Of a stretch of 64,000 bases of DNA, positions 7,041-63,786 are shown in pieces. The position numbers and the translations under genes were made by a program. Source of the DNA: Clavelina lepadiformis (lineage: Eukaryota > Chordata > Ascidiacea > Aplousobranchia > Clavelinidae). Below the pieces are notes generated by a model. That model worked only from the letters and a program-made list of their open reading frames with translations, was not told the origin of the DNA and did no database searches. Where the stretch lies: positions 3,288,501 to 3,352,500 of the forward strand of contig NC_135241.1 of NCBI RefSeq assembly GCF_947623445.1, written 5' to 3'. Every line of letters starts with the position of its first letter. Within the stretch, counting starts at the first letter, position 1.

Positions 7041-7061
7041 AATAAGATATTTCTAGTCAGT

Positions 7062-13103: not shown

Positions 13104-13175
13104 TTGCTCATTTTCAGTTGTCTGCAACGGAAACAATCGCTTTAGTCAAAACAACCTGTTTTAATTCATCCGATA

Positions 13176-19025: not shown

Positions 19026-22000
19026 TCATTTACAAATAGTCTGTTTTATTCGGGCAATTGGACTTTTTGATTTAATAACTTCACGAACCTCTTGTAATTC
19101 TTGCCTAGCGGCTTCACACAAAGCCAGCATGCTTTCTTGGTCTTCGGAAACACTTATGGCTTTTTTGTAGTCCGCTTCTGCGTTTTTGTAATTTTTCAGG
19201 GCGTACTTGCACGCGCCAGAAATGTAATGACTTCGCGCTTTAAATGAAGAACGAAGATTTTGATCCGTTCCGAGGTCTAACGGTAAAAGTTTGTACCCTT
19301 TTTAAGCCAGTCTTAAACTTTTCTTGTAATCTTCTACCTTCAGACACCAATAGCTAACATCGATCATGCACAAGCTTTGATACTTGATTCTAATCTCTTC
19401 ATCTGTTTTCGTGGATTTCTTAATTTTATCAATTGCATCTTCTCCGAAAGCGATTATGTCTCTCGCTAGGTCACGAGGCTCATTTTTCTCCAGCAAAATG
19501 GTAAAAAGTTGTTTAAGGATCTGGAACAAGTCATTAACGTGACAAACTTTGTCAGACTTATCCGCGATGAACGTGCACAGGTTGAGGCCACATTTGCAAA
19601 GCGTTGCGGCACATCTTAAATTGTTCTGTTGAATCAGTCTTTTTGCGGTCACTGCCACATAGCCAACTACTTCCTGGCAAAAGTGCTCCGGTGGTTGGAT
19701 TTCTGTTGCGATTTTGCAGAGATCTTCAGAAAGTTGTGTCTTATCCCCCTCCAGCTGTAGTAGAATAGCCAAGCGGAGCATATTTAACTTATTGATTAGA
19801 CGTGGGTAGCCCGATACGTCACAGTTCTTTAGATACTGGTAGATGTCTTTGCTTTTGTTGGCTTTGAGTTCGGGAAAATTTTCGTATAGTCTTGCCAAAT
19901 CTATGTGAAATGTGTAAGATATAAAGGTTGATGAAAGGAGGTTTTGACAGATCTCCGAAGTTTTGCATAAAACGCCCAGGGCTATACTTATCAGACGCTA
20001 TTTCAGTCGATTTTACAAATATTTAGCTATATATCGTATCAGCGTACGTAAACAGTTTAAAACATTACACCAAATATCAAAAACATGTTGCAATTACCTT
20101 CATTGTTACAAGCGAGTTGATCATTGCTTACCATTTATTGTCTTGTAAATGCTATTTACTTTCTTTTCTTCACTTAACGCATTGTCAACTTCGCGGAACG
20201 TGTAATGCGACTTAAGGAAATATTCTTCCGCCTCTTTTGGTTTCTTCTCCATCTCGTAAATCGATCCGAGATTGTTACAGCAAGACCCATAAGCGATAAG
20301 CTTCCTACAATTGCTCCCAAATTCTCTCTCTAGTTCTGTTATTGTCTTCTTGTTGAATTCTATCGATCCTGTTATGTTGTTGGTGCGGTTATAACAGGCT
20401 GCAATGCATTCCCAACACGCCGCTTTCGCTTGCAGAAGCAACTTTTTACTGACATTCTCATCTGGAAGCATCAGACTTAGAAGTTCCTCCGCGTAAGGCA
20501 TCATGACACTGTTAACGATCAATTTGGGCGCACTTACAGACTTGGAAACAAGAGCTTGCATCACCCTTGCGCATCTTTCAAAGAAAATAACCCTAGTCGA
20601 TGATTTGGTCATCTTCACACAAAGTTCTTTTGCGTACTGCATCAATTGCAGGATTGGTAATAGGATCTGGTCTGGGTGTTTCTTGTGAACCAATTGAACC
20701 ACGTTGATTATAGCATGAGCCGTTTTCAGCAATTCATTTTGGGATAGTGATATCGTGCTGACTACCTTGCTCAGCTTTTCACAAGCTACGGTTGCTTCTG
20801 TGCTATTGTCAATGGACTCTCGAATGGAAGTTATATACTGGTGGACCGTTGCGTTTTCTGGCAATAATTGGAATAAGTTTAAGCATAGTTATACTTACCG
20901 TTTTGATTTGGGTTTACTTTGAAAAACTGTATTTGCATATTAAGCCCGTGTTTCCCAAACGTAGTTTAACAGAACCGTGCTCCTCTAGTTTAATAGAACC
21001 CGTAGTTTAACAGAAACCTCCGCCCAAAAACGTTTGGGAACCACTAGCCATAATCTATTGCTTTGATATAACTTGAAACTATTGAACTTGGATTGTTAAT
21101 TAAAATTTACACCTTTGTCGTCATCAGTGAAACAATTCTCCAACATTTGCTCGCTGCTGGTTTTGTCTACTTCTGCGTTTCGCAAGAGCTCCTGCTTTTC
21201 TGAAAACAAATCCCCAAGCATATACATTGAAATAATTATAGTGGTTTCCGATCACATTAGCCGTCTTTCATTAGGTTCATACGAAGTTCGAAGCAAAAAA
21301 TACCAGAGCCGGAGTAAGTGCAACCTTAAACAACGCGATCATTGCTTATAATAATGACGGAACTATACGAAGTTGTTCTGTTGAAACCTGTGTTGGTCAG
21401 AGAAGTACTCATTGGTTCCACTGATGAGGTGTGTGGCATTTGTGCGACATCTGCTCGTTGGACATCTGCTCGACCTTTATCAGTATAATTCGAAGAATTA
21501 CAATTTTACCTAATACGTAGTATACTAAGATCAACACGGGTTTTTGTCTATGTATATGATTTACAAATAACAGGAAGTTTTATAACCAGTTTTATGAAAC
21601 CATATGTCTGAATAATAGTTAACTTCAATCCTATCACCTTTTTTGCGGCATATAATTTCATCTATTGAAACACATTCCTTTTCATCCGGTAAGCCTCGTC
21701 TTATGTTTACAAGCTGTACAGTGTTCAGCACGCATCTTGCTACTTTCGAGTGGTCGATACTTTCCATTTGACTGCGCAGCCTGTCTCTTACAGTCATCAT
21801 CGCAGGTCGCAGGGCTGGCGAGTGGTTCCAGCATTCTCTCATAACGTTTTGAAGCAAAGTTACGATCGTTGCTTCATCTTCTCGGCCTTCTTCACGAAGC
21901 TTGGTTAATTTTTCTTGTATCTCAGCCTCATTGAAGCGGATGCCTTCGATAACGCGTAACACCAGTAGGTTAGGCATCACACGAGCCGATTCGGGGTAGC

Positions 22001-23152
22001 GTCGCACCAACACAATGTATACAATAACACCAAAGCTGTAGACATCCATCGCGGTTGTGACGCGACTTGAATCCGTCGCCAGACGTTCAGGAGCGGCGAA
22101 TAGAAGTGTGTATTGGTTGCCTTCGTCAGGGTTATCATCATTCGGATCTTGGTTCGATAGAGTATGCATAGATAACGCGGCACCACCAAAATCGGCAACT
22201 TTGCAATGCAAATCAGAATCCAGGAGGATATTTTGTGGTTTTAGGTCTCCGTGCGCGATCCGTATAGTTTGAAATAAATTGTGGATGTAAGTGATTGCGT
22301 CCGACACTTCATAGCATATTCGTAAAAGAAGGATGACCGATATAGTGTCGATGGTTTTGTTGAAAAGCAGGTCATGCAAGGAACCGGCCGCCATATACTT
22401 TGTAACCATTCCAATCCATCCTTCCCATTCTACCATGCCTTCGACTCGCATAACAAAATCGTGGCTGGCGAGAAGCACCATCTTGATTTCCTTTAAAAAC
22501 CTAAGAGAACATTTGTGCATTATTCTGAGTGGTCCAGACCGCCCTTTACCAGTTTTCCACCACTGAAGATTAGACCACCTCAACAATTCTCATCGACTTA
22601 TAGCCTAGCATCAGCATACTTCTTGCGTGAGGCGTCTATTTCCTGTTCAGATCCTTGTAAGGGTTGACACTTCACAGCCAATCTGCCATGCACTCTGTGG
22701 TAACCAACAAGTACGGTACCAAAGTTGCCTCGTCCGAGTATGCTATCCTCAGCCTTGCATAGTATTTCGGATGCTTGGAACTCTTTCACGTCGTCCCGGG
22801 CTAGCAGAGCCTGTTGTCGTCAAACATATGACAATTGTATGGTTTGTGATCTTTTTCATGACTTTTGCAATTGCGATCCTTATCTAATTCGTGTATGCAT
22901 TGACTATTTTGAAGTCAAGCAAAGAATTGCACACTCACATAAGGATTGAGTTTTGAGAGATTCGTATGTCATAACTCTTTCCCATGTGGGCCTGCACATG
23001 GGTACATTTCTTTGCTTGACCACTCTTTTGTTTATGTATAGCTCATGCAAACCTTGATAAAAGCAGAAACTTCCAGTGCTTTAAATTAGATAAGAATCGT
23101 TAAAAGTTATATTAACTGTATGAGATCGTTTACTCACCTCAGCATCGTTCAT
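19026..23152 (-). CDS. kinase-TPR fusion protein, copy 1 (C-terminally truncated by a nonsense codon)
   Basis: Exons: 23138-23152, 22620-22810, 21638-22500, 21388-21474, 21113-21199, 20132-20857, 19026-19900. Domain order is as in copy 4. Two peculiarities stand out. First, the last exon has TAA where the other copies have GAA (after LRLA, at 19302-19304), so the product is 855 aa instead of 947 and loses the last TPR-like repeat. The rest of the exon is still open, suggesting a young lesion. Second, linker exon 4 is 87 bp rather than 141 bp. The deletion kept the frame and left a tandem RADVQ-RADVAQ, which supports exon 4 as coding. Kinase motifs (GRGNFG, AVK, HGDLKPQN, DFG, AAPE) are intact. 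It may still make an active kinase. Confidence 0.8.
20950..21042. repeat. small hAT-like remnant in kinase-TPR intron 5
   Basis: GTTTCCCAAACG at the left and CGTTTGGGAACC at the right form an 11/12 inverted repeat, similar to hAT ends. Copy 1 has three GTAGTTTAACAGAACC-like repeats between them. The other array copies have one, so the element predates the array and its core expanded only here. Confidence 0.4.
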
Positions 23153-23968
23153 AACGCCTGTCTTTGGCTGGCGAGTTGTTTGCTATTATAATCAGTTTAT
23201 CTAGGCTTAAACTAGAATTTACGTAAACATTTATGCCTTGTGCATCATGTGCCAAACAATGTTTTCTAGTTTTACCGTCATTGTTTTCCGACACCTGACT
23301 ATAATTGAGTAAATGCTAAACAATATGCGCCACGCATTAGAATTACATGCTTTATAATTGCCGTCTCATACTTAAAGTTGTTACTGGAAAGCCTTGTACG
23401 CAGTTTTATATGCCCTAAGGCAGTAGCTAACATTTTTGGAAATGCTTTGGTGTGCGTCAATTTAGGTTTAAAGCGTTAGGTAATTTGTTGTTCAACATTA
23501 AGGTGTGGTTGTATTTAGAGCGTTGGCACGTTGGCCATAACTTTTATACAAACACTTTGCAAATAACTTTTGTTCTATAAAATGCCAAGATATTCTCAAT
23601 TTTATTGTGGCTGCTTCAATTAGGCTATTTATTATCACGATAAAGCCAATTCCTACAAAATGGGCCTTGGGGGAAATTTGAAAACAAACTGTCTACAAAC
23701 ACTTTCAATTTATTAATGATTCATTTCGGAATTTAAAACAATTGCACAATACCTGTACTTAAGGTTTCGCATATAGTAGTTTAATTATGGCAGATTTTTT
23801 TTCTGCAAAGTCTTTTTTCCACTGAAGCCTTTAATCTGAAATGAAAATGATGCTCTGTTTCGCCACCTACCGGCGATATCGCAATAAACATTAACATTGC
23901 TCATTTTCAGTTGTCTGCAACGGAAACAATCGCTTTAGTCAAAACAACCTGTTTTAATTCATCCGATA
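23153..23968. other. 5' flank of kinase-TPR copy 1
   Basis: Promoter-side region of the kinase-TPR gene up to the SLC5 remnant of unit 2. No exon or clear TATA box was found close to the ATG. Confidence 0.4.
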
Positions 23969-25575
23969 TCACGTTTTTAAACGTCGTTGCATTACTTTCG
24001 TGTTACTTCTCACGTAGTCATGCGGCACTCCGCACCAAGTCCATTTCTGAGCCGATTTTGGCAAAAATATACACAGCCAGTGACTGAAGAAAGGATAAAC
24101 AAATCGAGGATCTAAGTCTTTACGGCTACGCTGTCTACCTAAATCAGCATTGATTTCATTTTTTTCAATTTAGAGCACGTAGTAGCCTATATCTAGGCCA
24201 CGCCTCGGCCAGCGTCACAATGCGTAAGAAGAGTTACGTACATTTCTACTGCTAAGAATGAAAAAAGCAACTTTGTTTACGATGCCAGGGAAATACGTAC
24301 ATGTCACGAAGCTAGTCAGCAACCCCACGACGATCGTGAAGGTAAATCCCCACGCTGAAAGGTACCAAAAAGACATCGAGTATATCTCCACCACTGCCGG
24401 CACAGTTCCGGTGGTGCTGCTCTGATGAGTTGACATTGCCGTTGAAAGTGACGTGAGCGGTGTTGTTGCGTTGCTGGGCAACGACGTTTCTGTCATTGGG
24501 CACATGTCTGTTCGCAATGGAAGAAAGCCTTGAAATTGCTCAATGTACCAACTGTGGTCCAAAGCACCGGTAAAAACCCACGCATTCATTGCGACACCGA
24601 CAAGTAAACCAACAATCGCTCCCTGCGGAAGATAATAATTAGTGGGTAAGTTTTAAAACTTAAGCTGATCTTCCATTAAGACATGTACTAAAAAGTATAA
24701 CCATCGAACTTAGCAACGGTAACACGTAGTAGTTATACCCACCGCAGGATTGGCGCAAGGGAATAGAATTCCGAGTGTGAATAAGCCTAACATAGGCCCG
24801 CCTAGCAAGCCATGAATTACCAAGGCTGCCTTTAAAAGTCCTTCAAGTCGTGATGTTAGAAATGCGAATAAGATGCTCAAAATTCCATAGAATACAACAG
24901 ATCCTAAAACCAAACTTTTAATATCTAATCTCTGTTCTATAAATTTCCGTGTAAACGTGCAATAGCGAGCTCTAGCGGTAATAGATTTTGACTTAATTTT
25001 GAACACTTATGTAATAGATGGCGCAAGAAAGTTATAAAGTATGTACCTCTTGCTATCCAGGTTGACCTTTCTTCACTGAAATCCCACCAAGGAGAAAAAA
25101 TATCCGTTACTGCGTAATGCGTAAACATCCCCCGGTGTTCCCAGCACTAAGGTGCCCGTTACAACCCTTACAGATAATGATAGGCCCACTGGGTAGGGAC
25201 TGAGTGACCTATAACATAGAAAGAGTAGCCTGTACATGACTGTCAACAGGGTAAGGCATCCTAAAGGTGTTTTCAATGTAAAAGTTGTAAATTTCTCATG
25301 TCAATTCCACAAAAATTGGCCTGCGAATTCGATACGGATGTAACACGCTGTTATTGCGTCACATTATTTTTGTCTTGAAAGTGTTTTCCTATTTTGAAAC
25401 AATGAAAACAATCGACCTACCTTCCACCAATGAGAAATTCATCACGGTCTTCTTTCTTTCTGTCTTTGTAGAAGTAAAAGCAACCAATCAGCGTTGACAC
25501 AAGAAACATCAACGCAAAAACAACGTAATCACCAGCAGAAAATGTTCTTCGCGTAAAGTCGGGAGCAAAATCCAT
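23969..25575 (-). pseudogene. SLC5 gene B copy with internal deletion (unit 2)
   Basis: Retains exon 1 (25421-25575) and the start of exon 2, then jumps at about 25113 into the middle of exon 9, followed by exons 10-12. Relative to gene B the missing interval is about 14318-16807 (2.5 kb: end of exon 2, exons 3-8, start of exon 9), with three extra bases at the junction. The join is out of frame and removes most of the transporter core, so no working symporter is possible. The remaining exons are still very similar to gene B, so the loss is recent or homogenised. Confidence 0.9.
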
Positions 25576-27301: not shown

Positions 27302-30300
27302 TCATTTACAAATAGTCTGTTTTATTCGGGCAATTGGACTTTTTGATTTAATAACTTCACGAACCTCTTGTAATTCTCGCCTAGCGGCTTCATACAAGGC
27401 TTTCATGCTTTCTTGGTCTTCGGAAACACTTATGGCTTTTTTGTAGTCCGCTTCTGCGTTTTTGTAATTTTTCAGGGCGTACTTGCACGCGCCAAAAATG
27501 TAATGACTTAGCGCTTTAAATGAAGAACGAAGATTTTGATCCGTTCCGAGGTCTAACGGTAAAAGTTTGTAACCTTTTTCAGCCAGTCTTAAACTTTTCT
27601 TGTAATCTTCTACCTTCAGACACCAATAGCTAACATCGATCATGCACAAGCTTTGATACTTGATTCTAATCTCTTCATCTGTTTTCGTGGATTTCTTGAT
27701 TTTATCAATTGCATCTTCTCCAAAAGCGATTATGTCTCTCGCTAGGTCACGAGATTCATTTTTCTCCAGCAAACTGGTAAAAAGTTGTTTAAGGATCTGG
27801 AACAAGTCATTAACGTGACAAACTTTATCAGACTTATCCGCGATGAACGTGCACAGGTTGAGGCCACATTTGCACAGCGTTGCGGCACATCTTAAATTGT
27901 TCTGTTGAATCAGTCTTTTTGCGGTCACTGCCACATAGCCAACTACTTCCCGGCAAAAGTGCTCCGGTGGTTGGATTTCTGTTGCGATTTTGCAGAGATC
28001 TTCGGAAAGTTGTGTCTTATCCCCCTCCAGCTGTAGTAGAATAGCCAAGCGGAGCATATTTAACTTATTGATTAGACGTGGGTAGCCCGATACGTCACAG
28101 GTCTTTAGATATTGGTAGATTTCTTTGCTTTTGTTGGCTTTGAGTTCCGGAACGTTTTCGTATAGTCTTGCCAAATCTATGTGAAATGTGTAAGATATAA
28201 AGGTTGATGAAACGAGGTTTTACAGATCTCCGAAGTTTTGCATAAAACGCCCAGGGCTATACTTATCAGACGCTATTTCAGTCGATTTTACAAATATTTA
28301 GCTATATATCGTATCAGCGTACGTAAACAGTTTAAAACATTACACCAAATATCAAAAACATGTTGCAATTACCTTCATTGTTACAAGCGAGTTGATCATT
28401 GCTTACCATTTATTGTCTTGTAAATGCTATTTACTTTCTTTTCTTCACTTAACGCATTGTCAACTTCGCGGAACGTGTAATGCGACTTAAGGAAATATTC
28501 TTCCGCCTCTTTTGGTTTCTTCTCCATCTCGTAGATCGATCCGAGATTGTTACAGCAAGACCCATAAGCGATAAGCTTCCTACAATTGCTCCCAAATTCT
28601 CTCTCCAGTTCTGTTATTGTCTTCTTGTTGAATTCTATCGATCCTGTGATGTTGTTGGTGCGGTTATGACAGGCTGCAATGCATTCCCAACACGCCGCTT
28701 TCGCTTGCAGAAGCAAAGTTTTACTGACATTCTCATCTGGAAGCATCAGACTTAGAAGTTCCTCCGCGTAAGGCATCACGACACTTTTAACGATCAAGTC
28801 GGTCGCACTTCCAGACTTGGAAACAAGAGCTTGCATCACCCTTGCGCATCTTTCAAAGAAAATAACCCTGGTGGATAATTTGGTCATCTTCACACAAAGG
28901 TCTTTTGCGTACTGCATCAATTGCAGGATTGGCAGCAGGATCTGGTCTGGGTGTTTCTTGTGAACCAATTGAACCACGTTGATTATAGCATGAGCCGTTT
29001 TCAGCAATTCATTTTGGGACAGTGATATCGTGCTGACTACCTTGCTCAGCCTTTCACAAGCTACGGTTGCTTCTGTGCTATTGTCAATGGACTCTTGAAC
29101 GGAAGTTATATACTGGTGGACCGTTGCGTTTTCTGGCAATAATTGGAATAAGTTTAAGCATAGCTATACTTACCGTTTTGTTTTGGGTTTACTTTGAAAA
29201 ATTGTATTTGCATATGAAGTCCGTGTTTCCCAAACGTAGTTTAACAGAACCCTCCGCCCAAAACGTTTGGGAACCACTAGCCATAATCTATTGTTTTGAT
29301 ATAACTTGAAACTATTGAACTTGGATTGTTAATTAAAATTTACACCTTTGTCGTCATCAGTGAAACAATTCTCCAACATTTGCTCGCTGCTGGTTTTGTC
29401 TACTTCTGCGTTTCGCAAGAGCTCCTGCTTTTCTGAAAAAAATTCCCCAAGCATAAACATTGAAATAATTATAGTGGTTTCCGATCATTTTAGCCGTCTT
29501 TCATTAGGTTCATACGAAGTTCGAAGCAAAAAATACCAGAGCCGGAGTAAGTGCAACCTTAAAAAACGCGATCATTGCTTATAATAATGACAGAACTATA
29601 CGAAGTTGTTCTGTTGAAACCTGTGTTGGTCAGAGAAGTACTCATTGGTTCCACTGATGAGGTGTGTGGCATTGGTGCGACATCTGCTCGTTGGATTTCT
29701 TGTGCGGAGCCAGTAGCAAGATCGGAAGGATAACTAACTCTGTGTCTACTTCCTCGCGGACCTTTATCAGTATAATTCGAAGAATTACAATTTTACCTAA
29801 TACGTAGTATACTAAGATCAACACGGGTTTTTGCCTATGTATATAATTTACGAATAACAGGAAGTTTTATAACCAGTTTTATGAAACCATATGTCTGAAT
29901 AATAGTTAACATCAATCCTATCACCTTTTTTGCGGCATATAATTTCATCTATTGAAACACATTCCTTTTCATCCGGTAAGCCTCGTCTTATGTTTACAAG
30001 CTGTACAGTGTTCAGTACGCATCTTGCTACTTTCGAGTGGTCGATACTTTCCATTTGACTGCGCAGCCTGTCTCTTACAGTCATCATCGCAGGTCGCAGG
30101 GCTGGCGAGTGGTTCCAGCATTCTCTCATAACGTTTTGAAGCAAAGTTACGATTGTTGCTTCATCTTCTCGGCCTTCTTCACGAAGCTCGGTTAATTTTT
30201 CTTGTATCTCAGCCTCATTGAAGCGGATGCCTTCGATAACGCGTAACACCAGTAGGTTAGGCATCACACGAGCCGATTCGGGGTAGCGTCGCACCAACAC

Positions 30301-31440
30301 AATGTATACAATAACACCAAAGCTGTAGACATCCATCGCGGTTGTGACGCGGCTCGAATCCGTCGTCAGACGTTCAGGAGCGGCGAATAGAAGTGTGTAT
30401 TGATTGCCTTCGTCAGGGTTATCATCATTCGGATCTTGGTTCGACAGAGTATGCATAGATAACGCGGCACCACCAAAATCGGCAACTTTGCAGTGCAAAT
30501 CAGAATCCAGCAGGATATTTTGTGGTTTTAGGTCTCCGTGCGCGATCCGTATAGTTTGAAATAAATTGTGGATGGAAGTGATTGCGTCCGACACTTCATA
30601 GCATATTCGTAAAAGAAGGATGACCGATATAGTGTCGATGGTTTTGTTAAAAAGCAGGTCATGCAAGGAACCGGCCGCCATATACTTTGTAACCATTCCA
30701 ATCCATCCTTCCCATTCCACCATGCCTTCGACTCGCATAACAAAATCGTGGCTGGCGAGAAGCACCATCTTGATTTCCTTCAAAAACCTAAGAGAACATT
30801 TGTGCATTATTCTGAGTGATCCAAACCGCCTTTTTACCAGTTTTCCACCACCGAAGATTAGACCACCTCAACAATTCTCATCGACTTATAGCCTAGCATC
30901 AGCATACTTCCTGCGTGAGGCGTCTATTTCTTGTTCAGATCCTTGTAAGGGTTGACACTTCACAGCCAATCTGCCATGCACTCTGTGGTAACCAACAAGT
31001 ACGGTACCAAAGTTGCCTCGTCCGAGTATGCTATCCTCAGCCTTGCATAGTATTTCGGATGCTTGGAACTCTTTCACGTCGTCCCGGGCTAGCAGAGCCT
31101 GTTGTCGGCAAACATATGACAATTGTATGGTTTGTAATCTTTTTCATGACTTTTGCAATTGCGATCCTTATCTAATTCGTGTATGCATTGACTATTTTGA
31201 AGTCAAGCAAAGAACTGCAAACTCACATAAGGATTGAGTTTTGAGCGATTCTTATGTCATAACTCTTTCCCATGTGGGCCTGCACATGGGTACATTTCTT
31301 TGCTTGACCACTATTTTGTTTATGTATAGCTCATGCAAACCTTGATAAAAGCAGAAACTTTCAGTGCTTTAAATTAGATAAGAATCGTTAAAAGTTATAT
31401 TAACTGTATGAGATCGTTTACTCACCTCAGCATCGTTCAT
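27302..31440 (-). CDS. kinase-TPR fusion protein, copy 2
   Basis: Seven intact exons: 31426-31440, 30908-31098, 29925-30787, 29621-29761, 29346-29432, 28407-29132, 27302-28176; 965 aa. Domain layout is as in copy 4. It differs from copies 3-6 by many amino-acid changes, notably in the linker (SDLATGSAQEIQRADVAPM) and in the helical region (VSKTLLLQ versus DSKKWLLQ; LLEKNESRD versus SLDENEPSD). The linker and helical differences are mostly non-synonymous, while the kinase catalytic motifs are unchanged. No disabling change was seen. Confidence 0.87.
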
Positions 31441-32002: not shown

Positions 32003-32157
32003 CTTCCACCAATGAGAAATTCATCACGGTCTTCTTTCTTTCTATCTTTGTAGAAGTAAAAGCAACCAATCAGCGTTGACACAAGAAACATCAACGCAAA
32101 AACAACGTAATCACCAGCTGAAAATGTTCTTCGCGTAAAGTCAGGAGCAAAATCCAT
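32003..32157 (-). pseudogene. SLC5 gene B exon 1 remnant (unit 3)
   Basis: Only the first coding exon survives: ATG at 32157, 51 complete codons through TM1 (SAGDYVVFALMFLVSTLIG) and the FLIGGR motif, with an intact donor (AAG|GTAGGTCG). There is no downstream SLC5 exon before the unit 2/3 junction. It could only donate an exon to a fusion transcript. Confidence 0.9.
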
Positions 32158-50677: not shown

Positions 50678-53600
50678 TCATTTACAAATAGTCTGTTTTA
50701 TTCGGGCAATTGGACTTTTTGATTTAATAACTTCACGAACCTCTTGTAATTCTCGCCTAGCGGCTTCATACAAGGCTTTCATGCTTTCTTGCTCTTTGGA
50801 AACACTTATGGCTTTTTTGTAGTCCGCTTCTGCGTTTTTGTAATTTTTCAGGGCGTACTTGCACGCGCCAAAAATGTAATGACTTAGCGCTTTAAATGAA
50901 CAACGAAGATTTTGATCCGTTCCGAGGTCTAACGGTAAAAGTTTGTAACCTTTTTCAGCCAGTCTTAAACTTTTCTTGTAATCTTCTACCTTCAGACACC
51001 AATAGCTAACATCGATCATGCACAAGCTTTGATACTTGATTCTAATCTCTTCATCTGTTTTCGTGGATTGCTTGATTTTATCAATTGCATCTTCTCCGAA
51101 AGCGATTATGTCTCTCGCTAGGTCACTAGGCTCATTTTCATCCAGCGAAATGGTAAAAAGTTTTTTAAGGATCTGGAACAAGTCATTAATGTGACAAACT
51201 TTATCAGACTTATCCGCGATGAACGTGCACAGGTTGAGGCCACATTTGCACAGCGTTGCGGCACATCTTAAATTCTTATGTTGAATTAGTCTTTTTGCGG
51301 TCACTGCCACGTAGCCAACTACTTCCTGGCAAAAGTGCTCCGGTGGTTGGAATTCGGTGGCAATTTTGCAGAGATCTTCGGAAAGTTGTGTCTTATCCCC
51401 CTCCAGCTGTAGTAGAATAGCTAAGCGGAGCATATTTAACTTATTGATTAGACGTGGGTAGCCCGATACGTCACAGGTCTTTAGATACTGGTAGATTTCT
51501 TTGCTTTTGTTTTCTTTGAGTTCTGGAAAGTTTTCGTATAGTCTTGCCAAATCTATGTGAAATGTGTAAGATATAATGGTTGATGAAACGAGGTTTTGAC
51601 AGATCTCCGAAGTTTTGCATAAAACGCCCAGGGCTATACTTATCAGACGCTATTTCAGTCGATTTTACAAATATTTAGCTATATATCGTATCAGCGTGCA
51701 AACAGTTTAAAACATTCCACCAAATACCAAAAACATGTCGCCATTACCTTCATTATTACAAGCGAGTTGATCATTGCTTACCATTTATTGTCTTGTAAAT
51801 GCTATTTACTTTCTTTTCTTCACTTAACGCATTGTCAACTTCGCGGAACGTGTAATGCGACTTAAGGAAATATTCTTCCGCCTGTTCTGGTTTCTTCTCC
51901 ATCTCGTAAATCGATCCGAGATTGTTACAGCAAGACCCATAAGCGATAAGCTTCCTACAATTGCTCCCAAATTCTCTCTCCAGTTCCGTTATTGTCTTCT
52001 TGTTGAATTCTATCGATCTTGTGATGTTGTTGGTGCGGTTATAACAGGCTGCAATGCACTCCCAACACGCCGCTTTCGCTTGCAGAAGCCACTTTTTACT
52101 GTCATTCTCATCTGGAAGCATCAGACTTAGAAGTTCCTCCGCGTAAGGCATGACGACACTGTTAACGATCAAGTCGGTCGCACTTCCAGACTTGGAAACA
52201 AGAGCTTGCATCACCCTTGCGCATCTTTCAAAGAAAATAACCCTGGTGGATAATTTGGTCATCTTCACACAAAGGTCTTTTGCGTACTGCATCAATTGCA
52301 GGATTGGCAGCAGGATCTGGTCTGGGTGTTTCTTGTGAACCAATTGAACCACGTTGATTATAGCATGAGCCGTTTTCAGCAATTCATTTTGGGATAGTGA
52401 TATCGTGCTGACTACCTTGCTCAGCCTTTCACAAGCTACGGTTGCTTCTGTGCTATTGTCAATGGACTCTTGAACGGAAGTTATATACTGGTGGACCGTT
52501 GCGTTTTCTGGCAATAATTGGAATAAGTTTAAGCATAGTTATACTTACCGTTTGTTTTGGGTTTAATTTGAAAAATTGTATTTGCATATAAAGTCCGTGT
52601 TTCCCAAACGTAGTTTAACAGAACCCTCCGCCCAAAACGTTTGGGAACCACTAGCCATAATCTATTGTTTTGATATAACTTGAAACTATTGAACTTGGAT
52701 TGTTAATTAAAATTTACACCTTTGTCGTCATCAGTGAAACAATTCTCCAACATTTGCTCGTAATTGTTGGTTTTGTCTACTTCTGCGTTTCGCAAGAGCT
52801 CCTGCTTTTCTGAAAACAAATCCCCAAGCATATACATTGAAATAATTATAGTGGTTTTCGATCACATTGGCCGTCTTTCATTAGGTTCATACGAAGTTCG
52901 AAGCAAAAATACCAGAGCCGGAGTAAATGCAACCATTTTAATTTCAGACTTGTCTAGTAATATTTATGCTCATTCTCAAGGGAGGATAGAGCTAATCTTA
53001 AACAACGCGATTATTGCTTATAATAATGACAGAACTATACGAAGTTGTTCTGTTGAAACCTGTGTTGGTCAGAGAAGTACTCATTGGTTCCACTGGTTCC
53101 ACGACATATGGCCGCGGGAAAGTGGCCGCGAACAAACTCACCGGGGTCAACTGAACGTGACGTAAATTGACCGCAGACAAACTGACTGTGACATAAACTG
53201 GCCGGCGATCAAATTAACCGTCGATAAATTGGCCGGCGATCAAATTAACCGACGACAAATTGGCCGTCAAAAGGTCAAAATTCTAATTCACTATCTAGTC
53301 ACTTCTGTTTATTTCAATAAACGTTTCAATGTGTATTGAAATAAAAAACAATTTTGTTAAAAACAAAGGAAATAGTTACAAACAAATATTTACTTTACAT
53401 ATCATATACTACCGAGTTTAAAATTTTGACCTTTTGACGGCCAATTTGTCGCCGGTTAATTTGATCGCCGGCCAATTTATCGACGGTTAATTTGATCGTC
53501 GGCCAGTTTATGTCACAGTCAGTTTGTCTGCGGTCAATTTACGTCACGTTCAGTTGACCCCGGTGAGTTTGTTCGCGGCCACTTTCCCGCGGCCATATGT

Positions 53601-55411
53601 CGTGCTCCCGGTTCCACTGATGAGGTGTGTGGCATTTGTTCGACATCTGCTCGTTGAATTGCTTGTGCGGAGCCAGTCGGAAGATTGGAAGGATAACTAA
53701 CTCTGTGTCTACTTCCTCGCGGACCTTTATCAGTATAATTCGAAGATTTACAGTTTTACCTAATACGTAGTATACTAAGATAAGATCAACACGGCTTTTT
53801 GGTTATGTATGTGATTTACGAATGACAGGAAGTTTTACAACCAGTTTCATGAAAATATATGTCTGAATAAAAGTTAACCTCAATCCTATCACCTTTTTTG
53901 CGGCATATAATTTCATCTATTGAAACACATTCCTTTTCATCCGGTAAGCCTCGTCTTATGTTTACAAGCTGTAATACAGTGTTCAGCACGCATCTTGCTA
54001 CTTTCGAGTGGTCGATACTTTCCATTTGACTGCGCAGCCTGTCTCTTACAGTCATCATCGCAGGTCGCAGGGCTGGTGAGTGGTTCCAGCATTCTCTCAT
54101 AACGTTTTGAAGCAAAGTTACGATTGTTGCTTCATCTTCTCGGCCTTCTTCACGAAGCTCGGTTAATTTTTCTTGTATCTCAGCCTCATTGAAGCGGATG
54201 CCTTCGATAACGCGAAACACCAGTAGGTTAGGCATCACACGAGCCGATTCGGGGTAGCGTCGCACCAACACAATGTATACAATAACACCAAAGCTGTAGA
54301 CATCCATCGCGGTTGTGACGCGACTTGAATCCGTCGTCAGACGTTCAGGAGCGGCGAATAGAAGTGTGTATTGGTTGCCTTCGTCAGGGTTATCATCATT
54401 CGGACCTTGGTTCGATAGAGTATGCATAGATAACGCGGCACCACCAAAATCGGCAACTTTGCAGTGCAAATCAGAATCCAGGAGGATATTTTGTGGTTTT
54501 AGGTCTCCGTGCGCGATCCGTGTAATTTGAAATAAATTGTGGATGTAAGTGATTGCGTCCGACACTTCATAGCATATTCGTAAAAGAAGGATGACCGATA
54601 TAGTGTCGATGGTTTTGTTGAAAAGCAGGTCATGCAAGGAACCGGCCGCCATATACTTTGTAACCATTCCAATCCATCCTTCCCATTCTACCATGCCTTC
54701 GACTCGCATAACAAAATCGTGGCTGGCGAGATGCACCATCTTTATTTCCTTTAAAAACCTAAGAGAACATTTGTGCTTTATTCTGAGTGGTCCAGACCGC
54801 CTTTTTACCAGTTTTCCACCACTGAAGATTAGACCACCTCAACAATTCTCATCGACTTAAAGCCTAGTATCAGCATACTTCTTGCGTGAGGCTTCTATTT
54901 CCTGTTGAGATCCTTGTAAGGGTTGACACTTCACAGCCAATCTGCCATGCACTCTGTGGTAACCAACAAGTACGGTACCAAAGTTGCCTCGTCCGAGTAT
55001 GCTATCCTCAGCCTTGCATAGTATTTCGGATGCTTGAAATTCTTTCACGTCGTCCCGGGCTAGCAGAGCCTGTTGTCGGCAAACATATGACAATTTTATG
55101 GTTTGTGATCTTTTTCATGACTTTTGCAATTGCGATCGTTATCTAATTCGTGTATGCATTAACTCTTTTGAAGTCAAGCAAAGAATTGCACACTCACATA
55201 AGGATTGAGTTTTGAGAGATTCGTATGTCATAACTCTTTCTCATGTGGGCCTGTACATGGGTACATTTCTTTGCTTGACCACTCTTTTGTTTATGTATAG
55301 TTCATGCAAGCCTTTATAAAAGCAGAAACTTTCAAAGCTTTAAATGGGATAAGAATCGTTAAAAGTTATATGAACTGTATGAGATCGTTTACTCACCTCA
55401 GCATCGTTCAT
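50678..55411 (-). pseudogene. kinase-TPR copy 5, disrupted by a MITE in exon 4
   Basis: Exons: 55397-55411, 54879-55069, 53893-54758, exon 4 split across 53060-53724, then 52720-52809, 51782-52507, 50678-51552. A 514-bp MITE sits inside linker exon 4. Reading from the kinase side, the frame enters the element and meets a stop after about 20 codons, which would release a kinase lacking the TPR part unless the element is spliced out. Exon 3 also has one extra Leu codon (NTVLQLVN versus NTVQLVN). All other exons match copies 4 and 6, so the insertion is younger than the amplification of units 4-6. Confidence 0.85.
53086..53619. mobile_element. long-TIR MITE (Mutator-like by structure) with 10-bp target duplication
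   Basis: Comparison with the uninterrupted exon in unit 4 fixes the insertion exactly: GGTTCCACTG occurs once in unit 4 and at both ends here (53086-53095 and 53610-53619). The element is 53096-53609. Its arms (about 53100-53283 and 53424-53604) are inverted repeats of about 180 bp, beginning CACGACATATGGCCGCGGG, that differ at only a few positions. Each arm contains internal repeats alternating ATTAACCG and AAATTGGCCG. A target duplication of 9-10 bp and very long TIRs suggest a Mutator-like family; no coding capacity. Confidence 0.85.
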
Positions 55412-56228
55412 AACGCCTGTCTCTAGCTGGCGAGTTGTTCGCTATTATAATCAGTTTATCTAGGCTTAAACTAGAATGTACATAAACATTTATGCCTTGT
55501 GCCTCATTTGCCAAACAATGCTTTCTAATTTTACCGTCATTGTTTTCCAACACCTGACTATAATTGAGTAAATGCTAAACAATATGCGCCACGCATTAGA
55601 ATTACATGCTTTATATTTGCCGTCTCATACTTAAAGTTGTTACTGGAAAGCCTTGTACGCAGTTTTATATGCCCTAAGGCAGTAGCTAACATTTTTGGAA
55701 ATGCTTTGGTGTGCGTCAATTTAGGTTTAAAGCGTTAGGTAATTTGTTGTTCAACATTAAGGTGTGGTTGTATTTAGAGCGTTGGCACGTTGGCCATAAC
55801 TTTTATACAAACACTTTGCAAATAACTTTTGTTCTATAAAATGCCAAGATATTTTCAATTTTATTGTGGCTGCTTCAATTAGGCTACTTATTATCACGAT
55901 AAAGCCAATTCCTACAAAATGGGCCTTGGGGGAAATTTGAAAACAAACTGTCTACAAACACTTTCAATTTATTAATGATACATTTCAGAATTTAAAACAA
56001 TTGCACAATACCTGTACTTAAGGTTTCGCATATAGTAGTTTAATTATGGCAGATTGTTTTTTCTGGAAAGTCTTTTTTCCACTGAAGCCTTTAATCTGAA
56101 ATGAAAATGATGCTCTGTTTCGCCACCTACCGGCGATATCGCAATAAACATTAACATTGCTCATTTTCAGTTGTCTGCAACGGAAACAATCGCTTTAGTC
56201 AAAACAACCTGTTTTAATTCATCCGATA
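55412..56228. other. 5' flank of kinase-TPR copy 5
   Basis: Same as 38136-38952; nothing further seen. Confidence 0.4.
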
Positions 56229-57835
56229 TCACGTTTTTAAACGTCGTTGCATTACTTTCGTGTTACTTCTCACGAAGTCATGCGGCACTCCGCACCAAGT
56301 CCATTTCTGAGCCGATTTTGGCAAAAATATACACAGCCAGTGACTGAAGAAAGGATGAACAAATCGAGGATCTACGTCTTTACGGCTACGCTGTCCACCT
56401 AAATCAGCATTGATTTCATTTTTTTCAATTTAGAGCACGTAGTACCCTATATCTAGGCCACGCCTCGGCCAGCGTCACAATGCGTAAGAAGAGTTACGTA
56501 CATTTCTACTGCTAAGAATGAAAAAAGCAACTTTGTTTACGATGCCAGGGAAATACGTACATGTCACGAAGCTAGTCAGCAACCCCACGACGATCGTGAA
56601 GGTAAATCCCCACGCTGAAAGGTACCAAAAAGACATCGAGTATATCTCCACCACTGCCGGCACAGTTCCGGTGGTGCTGCTCTGATGAGTTGACATTGCC
56701 GTTGAATGTGACGCGAGCGGTGTTGTTGCGTTGCTGGGCAACGACGTTTCTGTCATTGGGCACATGTCTGTTCGCAATGGAAGAAAGCCTTGAAATTGCT
56801 CAATGTACCAACTGTAGTCCAAAGCACCGGTAAAAACCCACGCATTCATTGCGACACCGACAAGTAAACCAACAATCGCTCCCTGCGGAAGACAATATTT
56901 AGTGGGTAAGTTTTAAAACTTAAGCTGATCTTCCATTAAGACATGTACTAAAAAGTATAACCATCGAACTTAGCAAAGGTAACACGTAGTAGTTATACCC
57001 ACCGCAGGATTGGCGCAAGGGAATAGAATTCCGAGTGTGAATAAGCCTAACATAGGCCCGCCTAGCAAGCCATGAATTGCAAAGGCTGCCTTTAAAAGTC
57101 CTTCAAGTCGGGATGTTAGAAATGCGAATAAGATGCCCAAAATTCCATAGAATACAACAGATCCTAAAACCAAACTTTTAATATCTAATCTCTGTTCTAT
57201 AAATTTCCGTGTAAACGTGCAATAGCGAGCTCTAGCGGTAATAGATTTTGACTTAATTTTGAACACTTACGTAATAGATGGCGCAAGAAAGTTATAAAGT
57301 ATGTACCTCTTGCTATCCAGGTTGACCTTTCTTCACTGAAATCCCACCAAGGAGAAAAAATATCCGTTACTGCGTAATGCGTAAACATCCCCCGGTGTTC
57401 CCAGCACTAAGGTGCCCGTTACAACACTTACAGATAATGATAGGCCCACTGGGTAGGGACTGAGTGACCTATAACATAGAAGGGGTAGCCTGTACATGAT
57501 TGTCAACAGGGTAAGGCATCCTAAAGGTGTTTTCAATGTAAAAGTTGTAAATTTCTCATGTCAATGTCACAAAAATTGGCCTGCGAATTCGATACGGATG
57601 TAATACGCTGTTATTGCGTCACATTATTTTTGTCTTGAAAGTGTTTTCCTATTTTGAAACAATGAAAACAATCGACCTACCTTCCACCAATGAGAAATTC
57701 ATCACGGTCTTCTTTCTTTCTGTCTTTGTAGAAGTAAAGGCAACCAATCAGCGTTGACACAAGAAACATCAACGCAAAAACAACGTAATCACCAGCAGAA
57801 AATGTTCTTCGCGTAAAGTCAGGAGCAAAATCCAT
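56229..57835 (-). pseudogene. SLC5 gene B copy with internal deletion (unit 6)
   Basis: Indistinguishable by eye from the unit 4 copy; exon 1 at 57681-57835. Confidence 0.9.
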
Positions 57836-59578
57836 TGTGCATTGGAGAAATGTTTCAATCAACTATAACTATACACTAGCTTAACACTTGTGTATAATCT
57901 AGCGAGAATAGCTGTTTATATATTTTTATCTTGACTCCACAAGTTACCATAGTCTTTTCCTGTATAAGCGGTCGATAAACCGGTTGGCAGTTTTTATTGA
58001 CTTGTTCTATGCCTATGGTAACTTCTTTAATATTGACTTTCTAGTTTCTAACTTCATGTCGCCAATGCTACTAAATTTTACCTGTTTCCCAAAGCTCCAG
58101 CAAGTCAAGTAAACTGTACGCATAACGAAATCAAGGCCGAGTGCTCATTCACGCGAAGATTGTCGAGAAAAAGTCATAAACTGAACGTAGTATTAGCAAT
58201 TCAGCCGCTTTAAATATAAAGTCGCTATCGATCCAATTCTCTGCAATCTACTGTACAGCCATGCTGATTAAATGCGAACACAATTTGAATACGATGTTTA
58301 CTTTAGAGATATACGGATACAGCCGCGCGTTTGTGTGTTGACTGTAATAGCTGAGCTCTAGTTCTAGAATAGTTTCTTCACGTTACCACTAGCCCCATTT
58401 ATACACCTTTTATGGCTGCTAGCAGTTCCCCAAATTTTAAGCGTAAAGGTTTGTTGTATTCCGGTCGCTTGCACGCACGGTAAACGTCGGGAAACAGCGA
58501 TCAGGTCATGCGTGTGCAGCCGCATTATTTCGTGCGTAACTCTGCTGTTATGCTTACAAACAGATTTTCAAAAGCAACACCTCAAGTGCGATAGTCAGAA
58601 AACCTTTTTGTTTGTCGACTTCAGTTTTATCTTTTAACTGTTTTTAGTGAATTTGATAAACTTACCTTTATTGTTACTTCTGTTGTTATCACATATTATG
58701 CTGTTTGTGGGGTATGCTTGTGATAAGGATTTTTAGTGTCACAGTTGGCCGAGAAAGGTAAAGGAATACTGCAAAACCTGTGTGTCTTAATTTCTTAAAG
58801 AACTTACATTAAAGGTTACGTCCATATTGCATGAGTGCATTGGTGATAAAGTATATTTATTCCAGCAATCACTTTCATGATTACTTTCTTTCATTAGATT
58901 CATTCACAGATACGTTATTTACATGTAAGCTATCGTTTATACACTATTTTCTATTCTTTTTTATGTAGTGAAATGCATAAACTGGTAGTTTATTAATGTT
59001 CCATCAAATGCCAATATGAAGGTAAACAGCTACTAAAAACGAACGTTTAAAAATTTCTTTCCGTTTCAGAGAACTAATTACAACGGAAATTTACGACACC
59101 TTAATACGTGTTATACTGTTGGCTGCTAAAGTTTCCCAAAATAACTTCCGAAACTCCAGCCAGGTACTGTAAAACGAAGAATTAAAGTTTCGGTGGAATC
59201 TTCACCTAAGGCGATACCTGCTGGTTAGTTCTCTGAAGTCATGCTGGTGCAATATTTATTTAAATGAGTGTAAGGGTTTACCAAGTCTGAATTTATGTAA
59301 ATTTTAAGTGAATGTAAGTAGGCGAATAGAGCAATACATTATGCTGTTATTGCTTGACATCGAGGCATTAAATATATTCGTGCTCACGATAAAGCTCGCA
59401 ACATATTAGTATGACGTTATGTATATAAGATTATATACGTACACACAAGGCATTGAAAACAAGACTAATACAAGGTGAAAATGTGCTCAACAGAACATGA
59501 TGCAGTCATTTGTTTGGTCGTAACCATGCGCTGACAAACAAATGATTTGCTGTAATCACCAAAATTATTATTGGCTTG
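57836..59578. other. hybrid spacer, unit 6
   Basis: Same beta-to-alpha hybrid as units 4 and 5. No exon found. Confidence 0.5.
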
Positions 59579-62500
59579 TCATTTACAAATAGTCTGTTTT
59601 ATTCGGGCAATTGGACTTTTTGATTTAATAACTTCACGAACCTCTTGTAATTCTCGCCTAGCGGCTTCATACAAGGCTTTCATGCTTTCTTGCTCTTTGG
59701 AAACACTTATGGCTTTTTTGTAGTCCGCTTCTGCGTTTTTGTAATTTTTCAGGGCGTACTTGCACGCGCCAAAAATGTAATGACTTAGCGCTTTAAATGA
59801 ACAACGAAGATTTTGATCCGTTCCGAGGTCTAACGGTAAAAGTTTGTAACCTTTTTCAGCCAGTCTTAAACTTTTCTTGTAATCTTCTACCTTCAGACAC
59901 CAATAGCTAACATCGATCATGCACAAGCTTTGATACTTGATTCTAATCTCTTCATCTGTTTTCGTGGATTGCTTGATTTTATCAATTGCATCTTCTCCGA
60001 AAGCGATTATGTCTCTCGCTAGGTCACTAGGCTCATTTTCATCCAGCGAAATGGTAAAAAGTTTTTTAAGGATCTGGAACAAGTCATTAATGTGACAAAC
60101 TTTATCAGACTTATCCGCGATGAACGTGCACAGGTTGAGGCCACATTTGCACAGCGTTGCGGCACATCTTAAATTCTTATGTTGAATTAGTCTTTTTGCG
60201 GTCACTGCCACGTAGCCAACTACTTCCTGGCAAAAGTGCTCCGGTGGTTGGAATTCGGTGGCAATTTTGCAGAGATCTTCGGAAAGTTGTGTCTTATCCC
60301 CCTCCAGCTGTAGTAGAATAGCTAAGCGGAGCATATTTAACTTATTGATTAGACGTGGGTAGCCCGATACGTCACAGGTCTTTAGATACTGGTAGATTTC
60401 TTTGCTTTTGTTTTCTTTGAGTTCTGGAAAGTTTTCGTATAGTCTTGCCAAATCTATGTGAAATGTGTAAGATATAATGGTTGATGAAACGAGGTTTTGA
60501 CAGATCTCCGAAGTTTTGCATAAAACGCCCAGGGCTATACTTATCAGACGCTATTTCAGTCGATTTTACAAATATTTAGCTATATATCGTATCAGCGTGC
60601 AAACAGTTTAAAACATTCCACCAAATACCAAAAACATGTCGCCATTACCTTCATTATTACAAGCGAGTTGATCATTGCTTACCATTTATTGTCTTGTAAA
60701 TGCTATTTACTTTCTTTTCTTCACTTAACGCATTGTCAACTTCGCGGAACGTGTAATGCGACTTAAGGAAATATTCTTCCGCCTGTTCTGGTTTCTTCTC
60801 CATCTCGTAAATCGATCCGAGATTGTTACAGCAAGACCCATAAGCGATAAGCTTCCTACAATTGCTCCCAAATTCTCTCTCCAGTTCCGTTATTGTCTTC
60901 TTGTTGAATTCTATCGATCTTGTGATGTTGTTGGTGCGGTTATAACAGGCTGCAATGCACTCCCAACACGCCGCTTTCGCTTGCAGAAGCCACTTTTTAC
61001 TGTCATTCTCATCTGGAAGCATCAGACTTAGAAGTTCCTCCGCGTAAGGCATGACGACACTGTTAACGATCAAGTCGGTCGCACTTCCAGACTTGGAAAC
61101 AAGAGCTTGCATCACCCTTGCGCATCTTTCAAAGAAAATAACCCTGGTGGATAATTTGGTCATCTTCACACAAAGGTCTTTTGCGTACTGCATCAATTGC
61201 AGGATTGGCAGCAGGATCTGGTCTGGGTGTTTCTTGTGAACCAATTGAACCACGTTGATTATAGCATGAGCCGTTTTCAGCAATTCATTTTGGGATAGTG
61301 ATATCGTGCTGACTACCTTGCTCAGCCTTTCACAAGCTACGGTTGCTTCTGTGCTATTGTCAATGGACTCTTGAACGGAAGTTATATACTGGTGGACCGT
61401 TGCGTTTTCTGGCAATAATTGGAATAAGTTTAAGCATAGTTATACTTACCGTTTTGTTTTGGGTTTAATTTGAAAAATTGTATTTGCATATAAAGTCCGT
61501 GTTTCCCAAACGTAGTTTAACAGAACCCTCCGCCCAAAACGTTTGGGAACCACTAGCCATAATCTATTGTTTTGATATAACTTGAAACTATTGAACTTGG
61601 ATTGTTAATTAAAATTTACACCTTTGTCGTCATCAGTGAAACAATTCTCCAACATTTGCTCGTAATTGTTGGTTTTGTCTACTTCTGCGTTTCGCAAGAG
61701 CTCCTGCTTTTCTGAAAACAAATCCCCAAGCATATACATTGAAATAATTATAGTGGTTTTCGATCACATTGGCCGTCTTTCATTAGGTTCATACGAAGTT
61801 CGAAGCAAAAATACCAGAGCCGGAGTAAATGCAACCATTTTAATTTCAGACTTGTCTAGTAATATTTATGCTCATTCTCAAGGGAGGATAGAGCTAATCT
61901 TAAACAACGCGATTATTGCTTATAATAATGACAGAACTATACGAAGTTGTTCTGTTGAAACCTGTGTTGGTCAGAGAAGTACTCATTGGTTCCACTGATG
62001 AGGTGTGTGGCATTTGTTCGACATCTGCTCGTTGAATTGCTTGTGCGGAGCCAGTCGGAAGATTGGAAGGATAACTAACTCTGTGTCTACTTCCTCGCGG
62101 ACCTTTATCAGTATAATTCGAAGATTTACAGTTTTACCTAATACGTAGTATACTAAGATAAGATCAACACGGCTTTTTGGTTATGTATGTGATTTACGAA
62201 TGACAGGAAGTTTTACAACCAGTTTCATGAAAATATATGTCTGAATAAAAGTTAACCTCAATCCTATCACCTTTTTTGCGGCATATAATTTCATCTATTG
62301 AAACACATTCCTTTTCATCCGGTAAGCCTCGTCTTATGTTTACAAGCTGTACAGTGTTCAGCACGCATCTTGCTACTTTCGAGTGGTCGATACTTTCCAT
62401 TTGACTGCGCAGCCTGTCTCTTACAGTCATCATCGCAGGTCGCAGGGCTGGTGAGTGGTTCCAGCATTCTCTCATAACGTTTTGAAGCAAAGTTACGATT

Positions 62501-63786
62501 GTTGCTTCATCTTCTCGGCCTTCTTCACGAAGCTCGGTTAATTTTTCTTGTATCTCAGCCTCATTGAAGCGGATGCCTTCGATAACGCGAAACACCAGTA
62601 GGTTAGGCATCACACGAGCCGATTCGGGGTAGCGTCGCACCAACACAATGTATACAATAACACCAAAGCTGTAGACATCCATCGCGGTTGTGACGCGACT
62701 TGAATCCGTCGTCAGACGTTCAGGAGCGGCGAATAGAAGTGTGTATTGGTTGCCTTCGTCAGGGTTATCATCATTCGGACCTTGGTTCGATAGAGTATGC
62801 ATAGATAACGCGGCACCACCAAAATCGGCAACTTTGCAGTGCAAATCAGAATCCAGGAGGATATTTTGTGGTTTTAGGTCTCCGTGCGCGATCCGTGTAA
62901 TTTGAAATAAATTGTGGATGTAAGTGATTGCGTCCGACACTTCATAGCATATTCGTAAAAGAAGGATGACCGATATAGTGTCGATGGTTTTGTTGAAAAG
63001 CAGGTCATGCAAGGAACCGGCCGCCATATACTTTGTAACCATTCCAATCCATCCTTCCCATTCTACCATGCCTTCGACTCGCATAACAAAATCGTGGCTG
63101 GCGAGATGCACCATCTTTATTTCCTTTAAAAACCTAAGAGAACATTTGTGCTTTATTCTGAGTGGTCCAGACCGCCTTTTTACCAGTTTTCCACCACTGA
63201 AGATTAGACCACCTCAACAATTCTCATCGACTTAAAGCCTAGTATCAGCATACTTCTTGCGTGAGGCTTCTATTTCCTGTTGAGATCCTTGTAAGGGTTG
63301 ACACTTCACAGCCAATCTGCCATGCACTCTGTGGTAACCAACAAGTACGGTACCAAAGTTGCCTCGTCCGAGTATGCTATCCTCAGCCTTGCATAGTATT
63401 TCGGATGCTTGAAATTCTTTCACGTCGTCCCGGGCTAGCAGAGCCTGTTGTCGGCAAACATATGACAATTTTATGGTTTGTGATCTTTTTCATGACTTTT
63501 GCAATTGCGATCGTTATCTAATTCGTGTATGCATTAACTCTTTTGAAGTCAAGCAAAGAATTGCACACTCACATAAGGATTGAGTTTTGAGAGATTCGTA
63601 TGTCATAACTCTTTCTCATGTGGGCCTGTACATGGGTACATTTCTTTGCTTGACCACTCTTTTGTTTATGTATAGTTCATGCAAGCCTTTATAAAAGCAG
63701 AAACTTTCAAAGCTTTAAATGGGATAAGAATCGTTAAAAGTTATATGAACTGTATGAGATCGTTTACTCACCTCAGCATCGTTCAT
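59579..63786 (-). CDS. kinase-TPR fusion protein, copy 6
   Basis: Exons: 63772-63786, 63254-63444, 62271-63133, 61962-62102, 61622-61711, 60683-61408, 59579-60453; 966 aa. The predicted protein of the large exons is identical to copy 4, and linker exon 4 is uninterrupted, unlike copy 5. It shows the pre-insertion state of the MITE site. Confidence 0.88.

Follow-up and report, generated by a model that had tools for sequence, protein, structure and literature searches.

Kinase-TPR genes in a tandem array of Clavelina lepadiformis: structure, relatives and possible function

On contig NC_135241.1 of the ascidian Clavelina lepadiformis, a stretch of 64,000 nucleotides (positions 3,288,501 to 3,352,500; hereafter the window, which is G000:C2:3288501-3352500 in the genome of 209 Mb and 95 contigs that was searched) carries a row of minus-strand genes in which exons encoding a protein kinase are followed by exons encoding helices of the tetratricopeptide repeat (TPR) type. 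The locus raises the question of whether the two parts form one protein or belong to separate genes, and of what such a joined protein would do. The sequence supports true fusion genes and makes two separate genes very unlikely; a splice form encoding the kinase only is possible.

Gene structure and the junction of kinase and TPR exons

The copy named K6 was rebuilt from the minus strand of 59300-64000 and used as the reference. It comprises seven exons with GT..AG borders at all introns and an unbroken frame, and its product is 966 amino acids (aa) long. The splice phases reported in an earlier note on this DNA (AA|G, G|GT, G|AA, G|AA and G|AT) were all reproduced with these borders. The features of K6, in window positions, are as follows.

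59579..63786, minus strand, K6, reference kinase-TPR gene, 966 aa
63772..63786, minus strand, exon 1, encoding MNDAE with a putative start codon
63254..63444, minus strand, exon 2, glycine loop and beta-3 lysine (VK) of the kinase, ending in phase 2 (AA|G)
62271..63133, minus strand, exon 3, remaining kinase with HGD and DFG, ending in phase 1 (G|GT)
61962..62102, minus strand, exon 4, linker
61622..61711, minus strand, exon 5, linker
60683..61408, minus strand, exon 6, TPR-A module, phase 1 at both ends
59579..60453, minus strand, exon 7, TPR-B module and stop codon

In Pfam, the spliced K6 protein matched Pkinase at 123.3 bits (cut-off 31.7), TPR_1 at 31.0 bits (cut-off 27.8) and TPR_2 at 29.1 bits (cut-off 27), and each TPR exon scanned alone remained under the cut-off. 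The scan of the whole protein (E up to 1) returned, besides kinase and TPR, weak other models under the cut-off, and no model for a death domain (DD), CARD, RHIM or ankyrin.

The order of the two parts was examined across the genome, where at least 120 matches were obtained for the K6 kinase exon and at least 78 and at least 58 for the two TPR exons, some of the matches being split exons of one gene. Within 1.5 kb, a downstream TPR exon on the same strand was found at 37 of the 120 listed kinase matches, and a TPR exon in any of the three other arrangements (upstream or on the opposite strand) at none of the 120. Within 3 kb, the same-strand downstream arrangement was found at 38 of the listed kinase matches against 0, 0 and 0 for the others, and 82 of the 120 had no TPR match at this distance. 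Within 6 kb, among the matches listed, there were 44 downstream on the same strand against 12 upstream on the same strand, 1 downstream on the opposite strand and 3 upstream on the opposite strand; upstream matches at this range are expected of tandem arrays. The pattern seen in the array goes beyond chance, since tens of diverged loci elsewhere show the same succession of exons.

At the loci examined in detail, tblastn gave similar exon borders at 23-61% identity. Loci for testing phase and distance were hand-picked among the matches; some are close paralogues (L015-L017, L013/L014 and L022/L023), so that the locus counts are not independent events. Donor and acceptor sites were scored with self-written weights drawn from general knowledge. 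Twelve loci were used for the exon 2/3 border, which was in phase 2 in 11 (L022 yielded no solution), and six for the exon 6/7 border, which was in phase 1 in five (L015 yielded none). The top-scoring donor where the kinase exon ends was in phase 1 in all 14 of the diverged loci used. At the start of the TPR-A exon, for which 12 loci were used, the top acceptor was in phase 1 at residue 433-435 in nine, and a phase-1 acceptor at residues 432-435 was within the top three in all 12; the exceptions were L019 and L023, in which the top acceptor was of another phase, and L022, in which it was located elsewhere. The first methionine in the K6 TPR-A exon does not occur before residue 73.

Distances between loci in the kinase part were correlated with those in TPR-A (r=0.863, permutation P=0.0002, 11 loci) and in TPR-B (r=0.893, P=0.003, 7 loci). 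Conserved intron phases, the bias in listed order (37/120 against 0/120) and co-varying distances all argue for the fusion that the earlier note had proposed.

Comparison of the K6 exons with the genome by blastn located six copies inside the window and three beyond it, which makes an array of nine (K1 to K9), and the gene models of all nine begin with MNDAE at a putative start codon. Within the window, the array runs from 19026, where the K1 frame ends, to 63786, where the ATG of K6 starts. The six tandem minus-strand genes of kinase, linker and TPR that had been described before are thus all present; the array, however, continues to nine copies, and only four of the six are open throughout (K2, K3, K4 and K6), as are K7 and K8 outside the window. 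The copies other than K6 inside the window are listed below.

19026..23152, minus strand, K1, kinase-TPR gene with a short exon 4 and a premature in-frame TAA in exon 7
27302..31440, minus strand, K2, kinase-TPR gene, open throughout, 965 aa
33928..38135, minus strand, K3, kinase-TPR gene, open throughout, 966 aa
42303..46510, minus strand, K4, kinase-TPR gene, open throughout, 966 aa
50678..55411, minus strand, K5, kinase-TPR gene with an insertion that splits exon 4

In K1 and in K9, which lies outside the window, exon 4 is shorter and, as read by eye, the frame is kept; the translations of K1, K5 and K9 were made without exon 4. The six kinase exons of the window are spaced by 8287, 6695, 8375, 8901 and 8375 bp, of which the 8901-bp interval fits 8375 bp plus the K5 insertion. 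Over exons 2-7, the number of substitutions relative to K6 was eight in K3, zero in K4, zero in K5 and six in K7. A 3-nt insertion in exon 3 is present in K5 and K7 only, and private substitutions were found in K3 (seven in exon 7) and K7 (five in exon 2). Since K7 departs from K6 mostly in exon 2 and around exon 1, the copies are partly mosaic. The block K3-K4 is 99.96% identical to K5-K6 over 10.4 kb, and K4 and K5 share a block of 99.95% identity over 8.4 kb. With K3, K4, K5 and K7 differing from K6 by at most eight substitutions, the exact copy number depends on the assembly, for which the available part of the genome report states 117-fold HiFi reads and a consensus quality value (QV) of 67.4 (PMC10884593).

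The kinase and TPR parts and their relatives

The kinase was compared with kinases of solved structure, ranked by search and not by tree. Using phmmer against PDB, the top 32 of the best 60 distinct sequences were all RIPK2, RIPK1, RIPK3 or RIPK4, with E values from 1.9e-26 (RIPK2, the best) to 8e-20 (RIPK4, the last of the group), and the first other kinase was TYK2 at 5e-16. When a profile of 13 family members was used, the top 26 of the best 60 were RIPK1, RIPK2 or RIPK4, followed close together by a full-length tyrosine kinase (7t6f), IRAK4 and RIPK3, with IRAK4 at 7e-33 level with RIPK3. Both rankings agree with the RIPK/IRAK-like grouping made earlier from the letters alone. In the aligned exon 3 kinases, HGD, the catalytic-loop Asn and the alpha-C Glu were invariant in 13/13 and the DFG Asp was present in 12/13, which bears out the non-RD HGD motif of the earlier note; in a member on contig C4 (L030) the motif reads HCD, which is also non-RD. 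The catalytic residues are complete and of the non-RD type, consistent with RIPK membership. By its domain the kinase is best described as RIPK-type, and by architecture it would not be an orthologue of RIPK1-5, since K6 is without a DD, CARD, RHIM or ankyrin model.

The C-terminal part consists of two TPR modules, about 240 and 290 residues long, that are homologous to each other (TPR-A against TPR-B, hhalign E 3.4e-13). AlphaFold models of TPR-A and TPR-B had mean confidences (pLDDT) of 88.2 and 87.8 and predicted template modelling scores (pTM) of 0.86 and 0.84, and the best Foldseek matches of the modules were TPR proteins, e.g. kinesin light chain 2, LGN and sNASP. The models support the prediction that both modules are helical solenoids, and together with the TPR_1 and TPR_2 matches above cut-off they uphold the roughly 530 residues of TPR-like helices claimed before. 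Across the same 11 loci, mean pairwise identity was 46.7% for the kinases and 26.5% for TPR-A, which supports faster divergence of the TPR part between loci. Between array copies, 11 pairs were compared, which share copies and are not independent. Two of them had no synonymous change in one or more of the parts. For the other nine, which had such changes in every part, the ratio of nonsynonymous to synonymous change (dN/dS) was below 1 in all three parts (9/9), a sign of constraint, with ranges of 0.09-0.54 for the kinase, 0.09-0.59 for TPR-A and 0.16-0.91 for TPR-B.

TPR exons of this kind were also found behind RING fingers, in the following two loci among others, both reached from TPR matches on C7 that had no kinase.

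C7:16698500-16706500, local positions 3369-3617 and 5538-6404, L029, RING exon followed by a TPR exon akin to that of the kinase genes
C7:15056500-15066000, local positions 1208-2950 and 6505-8071, L031, RING exon followed by a TPR exon

The RING exons of L029 and L031 matched zf-C3HC4 at 36 and 38 bits (cut-off 21), and the L029 TPR exon matched the TPR-A profile with an E value of 1.4e-16 over 236 columns. The RING-TPR genes form a tandem array at C7:16.66-16.72 Mb and have diverged members at C7:15.06 Mb and C6:17.76 Mb. Counts of neighbouring parts were based on all listed TPR-A and TPR-B matches plus 21 of 69 extra TPR matches, hand-picked among those not already associated with a kinase. 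Within 3 kb, a downstream TPR exon on the same strand was present at 9 of 33 RING matches and one on the opposite strand at none; upstream, the counts were 4 of 33 on the same strand, which is attributed to the tandem arrangement of the C7 array, and 0 on the opposite strand. Where the RING-side TPR exon begins, no acceptor scored higher than a phase-1 one in any of the three cases inspected (3/3). Since both kinds of TPR exon are entered in phase 1, exon shuffling is a plausible route by which one TPR module came to stand behind two output domains. The occurrence of a related TPR exon behind kinases and RING fingers suggests one recognition module with two outputs; general likeness among TPR sequences could conceivably be the reason for the match.

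Among known systems, the closest by kinase domain are vertebrate RIPK1-RIPK5, which are the nearest solved kinase relatives and likewise carry the kinase at the N-terminus and an interaction module at the C-terminus. Vertebrate RIP kinases are distinguished by the module behind the kinase, and these modules gather the kinase domains. RIPKs also share the HxD motif without Arg (RIPK2 reads HHD in the alignment with K6). They differ in that the C-terminal module of K6 is a double TPR, with DD, CARD, RHIM and ankyrin unmatched in K6. IRAK proteins carry an N-terminal death domain; none was matched in K6, although IRAK4 stands near the top of the family-profile ranking. A survey of RIPKs describes, in the available part of its text, RHIM, CARD, ANK and LRR-Roc/COR as C-terminal or companion modules, and LRR, DEATH, SH3, ZU5 and Zalpha as modules of amphioxus RIPKs (PMC9573974); the words 'TPR', 'tetratricopeptide', 'tunicate' and 'Ciona' have 0 occurrences in its main text.

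The earlier note knew no named family with this order of parts. Plant BSK proteins, however, have an N-terminal kinase and a C-terminal TPR (PMC6336344, in the portion used here), so that the kinase-then-TPR order met in K6 is not itself new. According to the same portion, BSK3 is N-myristoylated, carries three TPR motifs and uses its TPR for homo- and heterodimers; in contrast, K1-K9 begin with MNDAE, with no Met-Gly at the putative start, and K6 has two TPR modules of about 530 residues. In the family-profile search, animal RIPK and IRAK ranked above the first plant kinase, SOBIR1 (7e-30), and no BSK was present among the best 60 PDB matches. The likeness to BSK would be convergent in order, and kinship is not supported. 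Among the best-matching titles and abstract openings of the open-licence literature, no precedent was found for a RIPK-type or tunicate kinase with TPR. What appears new is the combination of TPR with a RIPK-type kinase on this scale. As a caution, novel domain combinations in lancelets may reflect gene-prediction errors (PMC4967905, as stated in the part available). LONRF proteins contain TPR and thus resemble the RING-TPR genes in having RING and TPR together. They have RING and Lon domains (PMC10226518, from the part available), whereas no LON domain was found in three L031 open frames scanned, and the RING-side TPR is akin to the TPR of the kinase genes.

Proposed function and competing explanations

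The results may be read jointly as a fusion family expanded in a tunicate lineage, in which the TPR part sets specificity and the kinase sets a stress, immune or cell-death output, a reading that we consider evenly balanced between right and wrong. Of this reading, sequence and models support the structure of the genes, the RIPK type of the kinase, the TPR fold, the joint inheritance of the parts, repeated tandem expansion and the faster divergence of the TPR part. The TPR part would occupy the place held in vertebrate RIPKs by DD, CARD, RHIM or ankyrin modules, and it probably binds a partner or itself and thereby controls kinase activation, by analogy with RIPKs and with what is described for BSK3 (PMC6336344, in part). 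A protein or peptide partner could be a host adaptor or a non-self ligand; binding would bring kinase domains together and lead to their activation in trans, and the activated kinase would relay a signal of stress, innate immunity or cell death. The fast change of the TPR part suggests varied partners, so that the fast-diverging TPR would represent specificity and the conserved kinase the output, and a related TPR exon behind RING fingers would couple similar recognition modules to ubiquitylation. Judging by the type of kinase and the expansion of the arrays, one may reasonably guess at an immune or cell-death output, and the receptor-proximal or cell-death signalling role put forward in the earlier note is a hypothesis of this kind. 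A wider proposal is that one fast-diverging phase-1 TPR module, placed behind either a RIPK-type kinase or a RING ubiquitin ligase, forms a large intracellular recognition repertoire whose tandem arrays generate new specificities, as NLR, TRIM and IFIT families do elsewhere; this is speculative and rather unlikely. If the joint reading is true, a lineage close to vertebrates would have TPR solenoids behind a RIPK-type kinase in dozens of genes, the RIPK output could be coupled to quite different sensors, the family would be a ready set of natural domain swaps, and there would be a candidate route by which Clavelina lepadiformis might diversify intracellular recognition.

Two alternatives concern the genes themselves. 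Kinase and TPR protein could be made separately, from neighbouring genes or an operon, in which case the joined frames would be coincidence or reflect trans-spliced cistrons; such operons are known in tunicates, and the kinase frame is still open 25 codons beyond the exon 3 donor. This is highly improbable in view of the phase-1 donor and acceptor pairs at fixed residues in relatives, the K6 TPR-A exon without a start codon near its beginning, the constant order and orientation at 37 of the 120 listed kinase matches within 1.5 kb, and the phase-1 intron that joins both TPR exons in five of six loci. It is also quite unlikely that the assembler repeated one unit within K3-K7, which would make the copy number partly an artefact. 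The 99.96% and 99.95% identical blocks among K3-K6 speak for such an error; against it stand the private marks of the copies (the K5 insertion, the 3-nt insertion of K5 and K7, K3 exon 7 and K7 exon 2) and the depth and quality of the assembly (PMC10884593, as stated there), and family members elsewhere in the genome are independent of the count in K3-K7.

The alternative that bears on function is a scaffold kinase like plant BSKs, in which the TPR part only dimerises or anchors the protein to a fixed partner and the family grew by drift or dosage, with neither recognition of varied ligands nor a part in immunity. In its favour, BSK3, whose parts follow the same order, forms homo- and heterodimers through its TPR motifs (PMC6336344, in part), the TPR fold is generic, and the near-identical copies K3-K7 resemble dosage more than diversification. 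A pure scaffold is at odds, however, with catalytic residues kept in most aligned members and a kinase dN/dS below 1, with TPR parts that diverge much faster than kinases between loci, and with RIPK and IRAK as the closest kinase relatives; we regard this alternative as somewhat unlikely. The reading as a family with TPR-set specificity and kinase-set output is the one we prefer.

Dispersed relatives and sequences carried in the array

When the TPR matches were merged, at least 89 loci were obtained, of which 48 had a kinase upstream (38 within 3 kb and 10 at 3-8 kb), 10 had a RING within 3 kb and 31 had neither. Sixteen of these 31 sit on C4 at 21.67-24.88 Mb. One member of that array was inspected, L030 (C4:24303000-24312900), which belongs to the 3-8 kb class with the kinase several kb upstream; in this member of the large array at C4:24.0-24.4 Mb the HCD-type kinase is spread over more exons and the TPR exons lie several kb downstream.

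Several other loci were noted. At L028 (C8:622500-632400), a kinase of another branch precedes an exon that encodes helices and is akin to TPR-A (E 1e-8, 155 columns). L025 (C4:2003000-2012900) and L026 (C4:2901500-2911400) are, by eye, almost identical family kinase genes at distant sites, with further kinase matches at C4:1.43 and 2.61 Mb; no TPR match was found behind the L025 and L026 kinases, which are dispersed copies with no recognised TPR part. At L027 (C4:22636500-22646400), a kinase of another branch precedes a set of small open frames; a Pfam scan of four of these gave nothing above the cut-off. TPR-like exons with neither a kinase nor a RING match upstream were found at L032 (C8:967500-973500) and L033 (C5:24181500-24189500), in tandem in the latter.

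A stretch of 1.2 kb is present in five copies in or beside the array at 98% identity (13104-14317, 23897-25112, 38881-40096, 47256-48471 and 56157-57372) and is carried along with the tandem unit. It contains an open frame of 145 aa that resembles, by eye, part of an SLC5-type (sodium:solute symporter) transporter and had no match in Pfam; a separate open reading frame at 8383-8922 gave a weak SSF match (19.7 bits, cut-off 22.8). The insertion in K5 is a foldback element, placed as follows.

53096..53609, no strand assigned, 514-bp foldback element inside K5 exon 4, with inverted arms at 53080-53286 and 53418-53624

When the first 225 bp of this element were compared with the genome, all 40 of the 40 scored matches, out of 718 candidates and including the window copy, were perfect, and the element was therefore probably active very recently.

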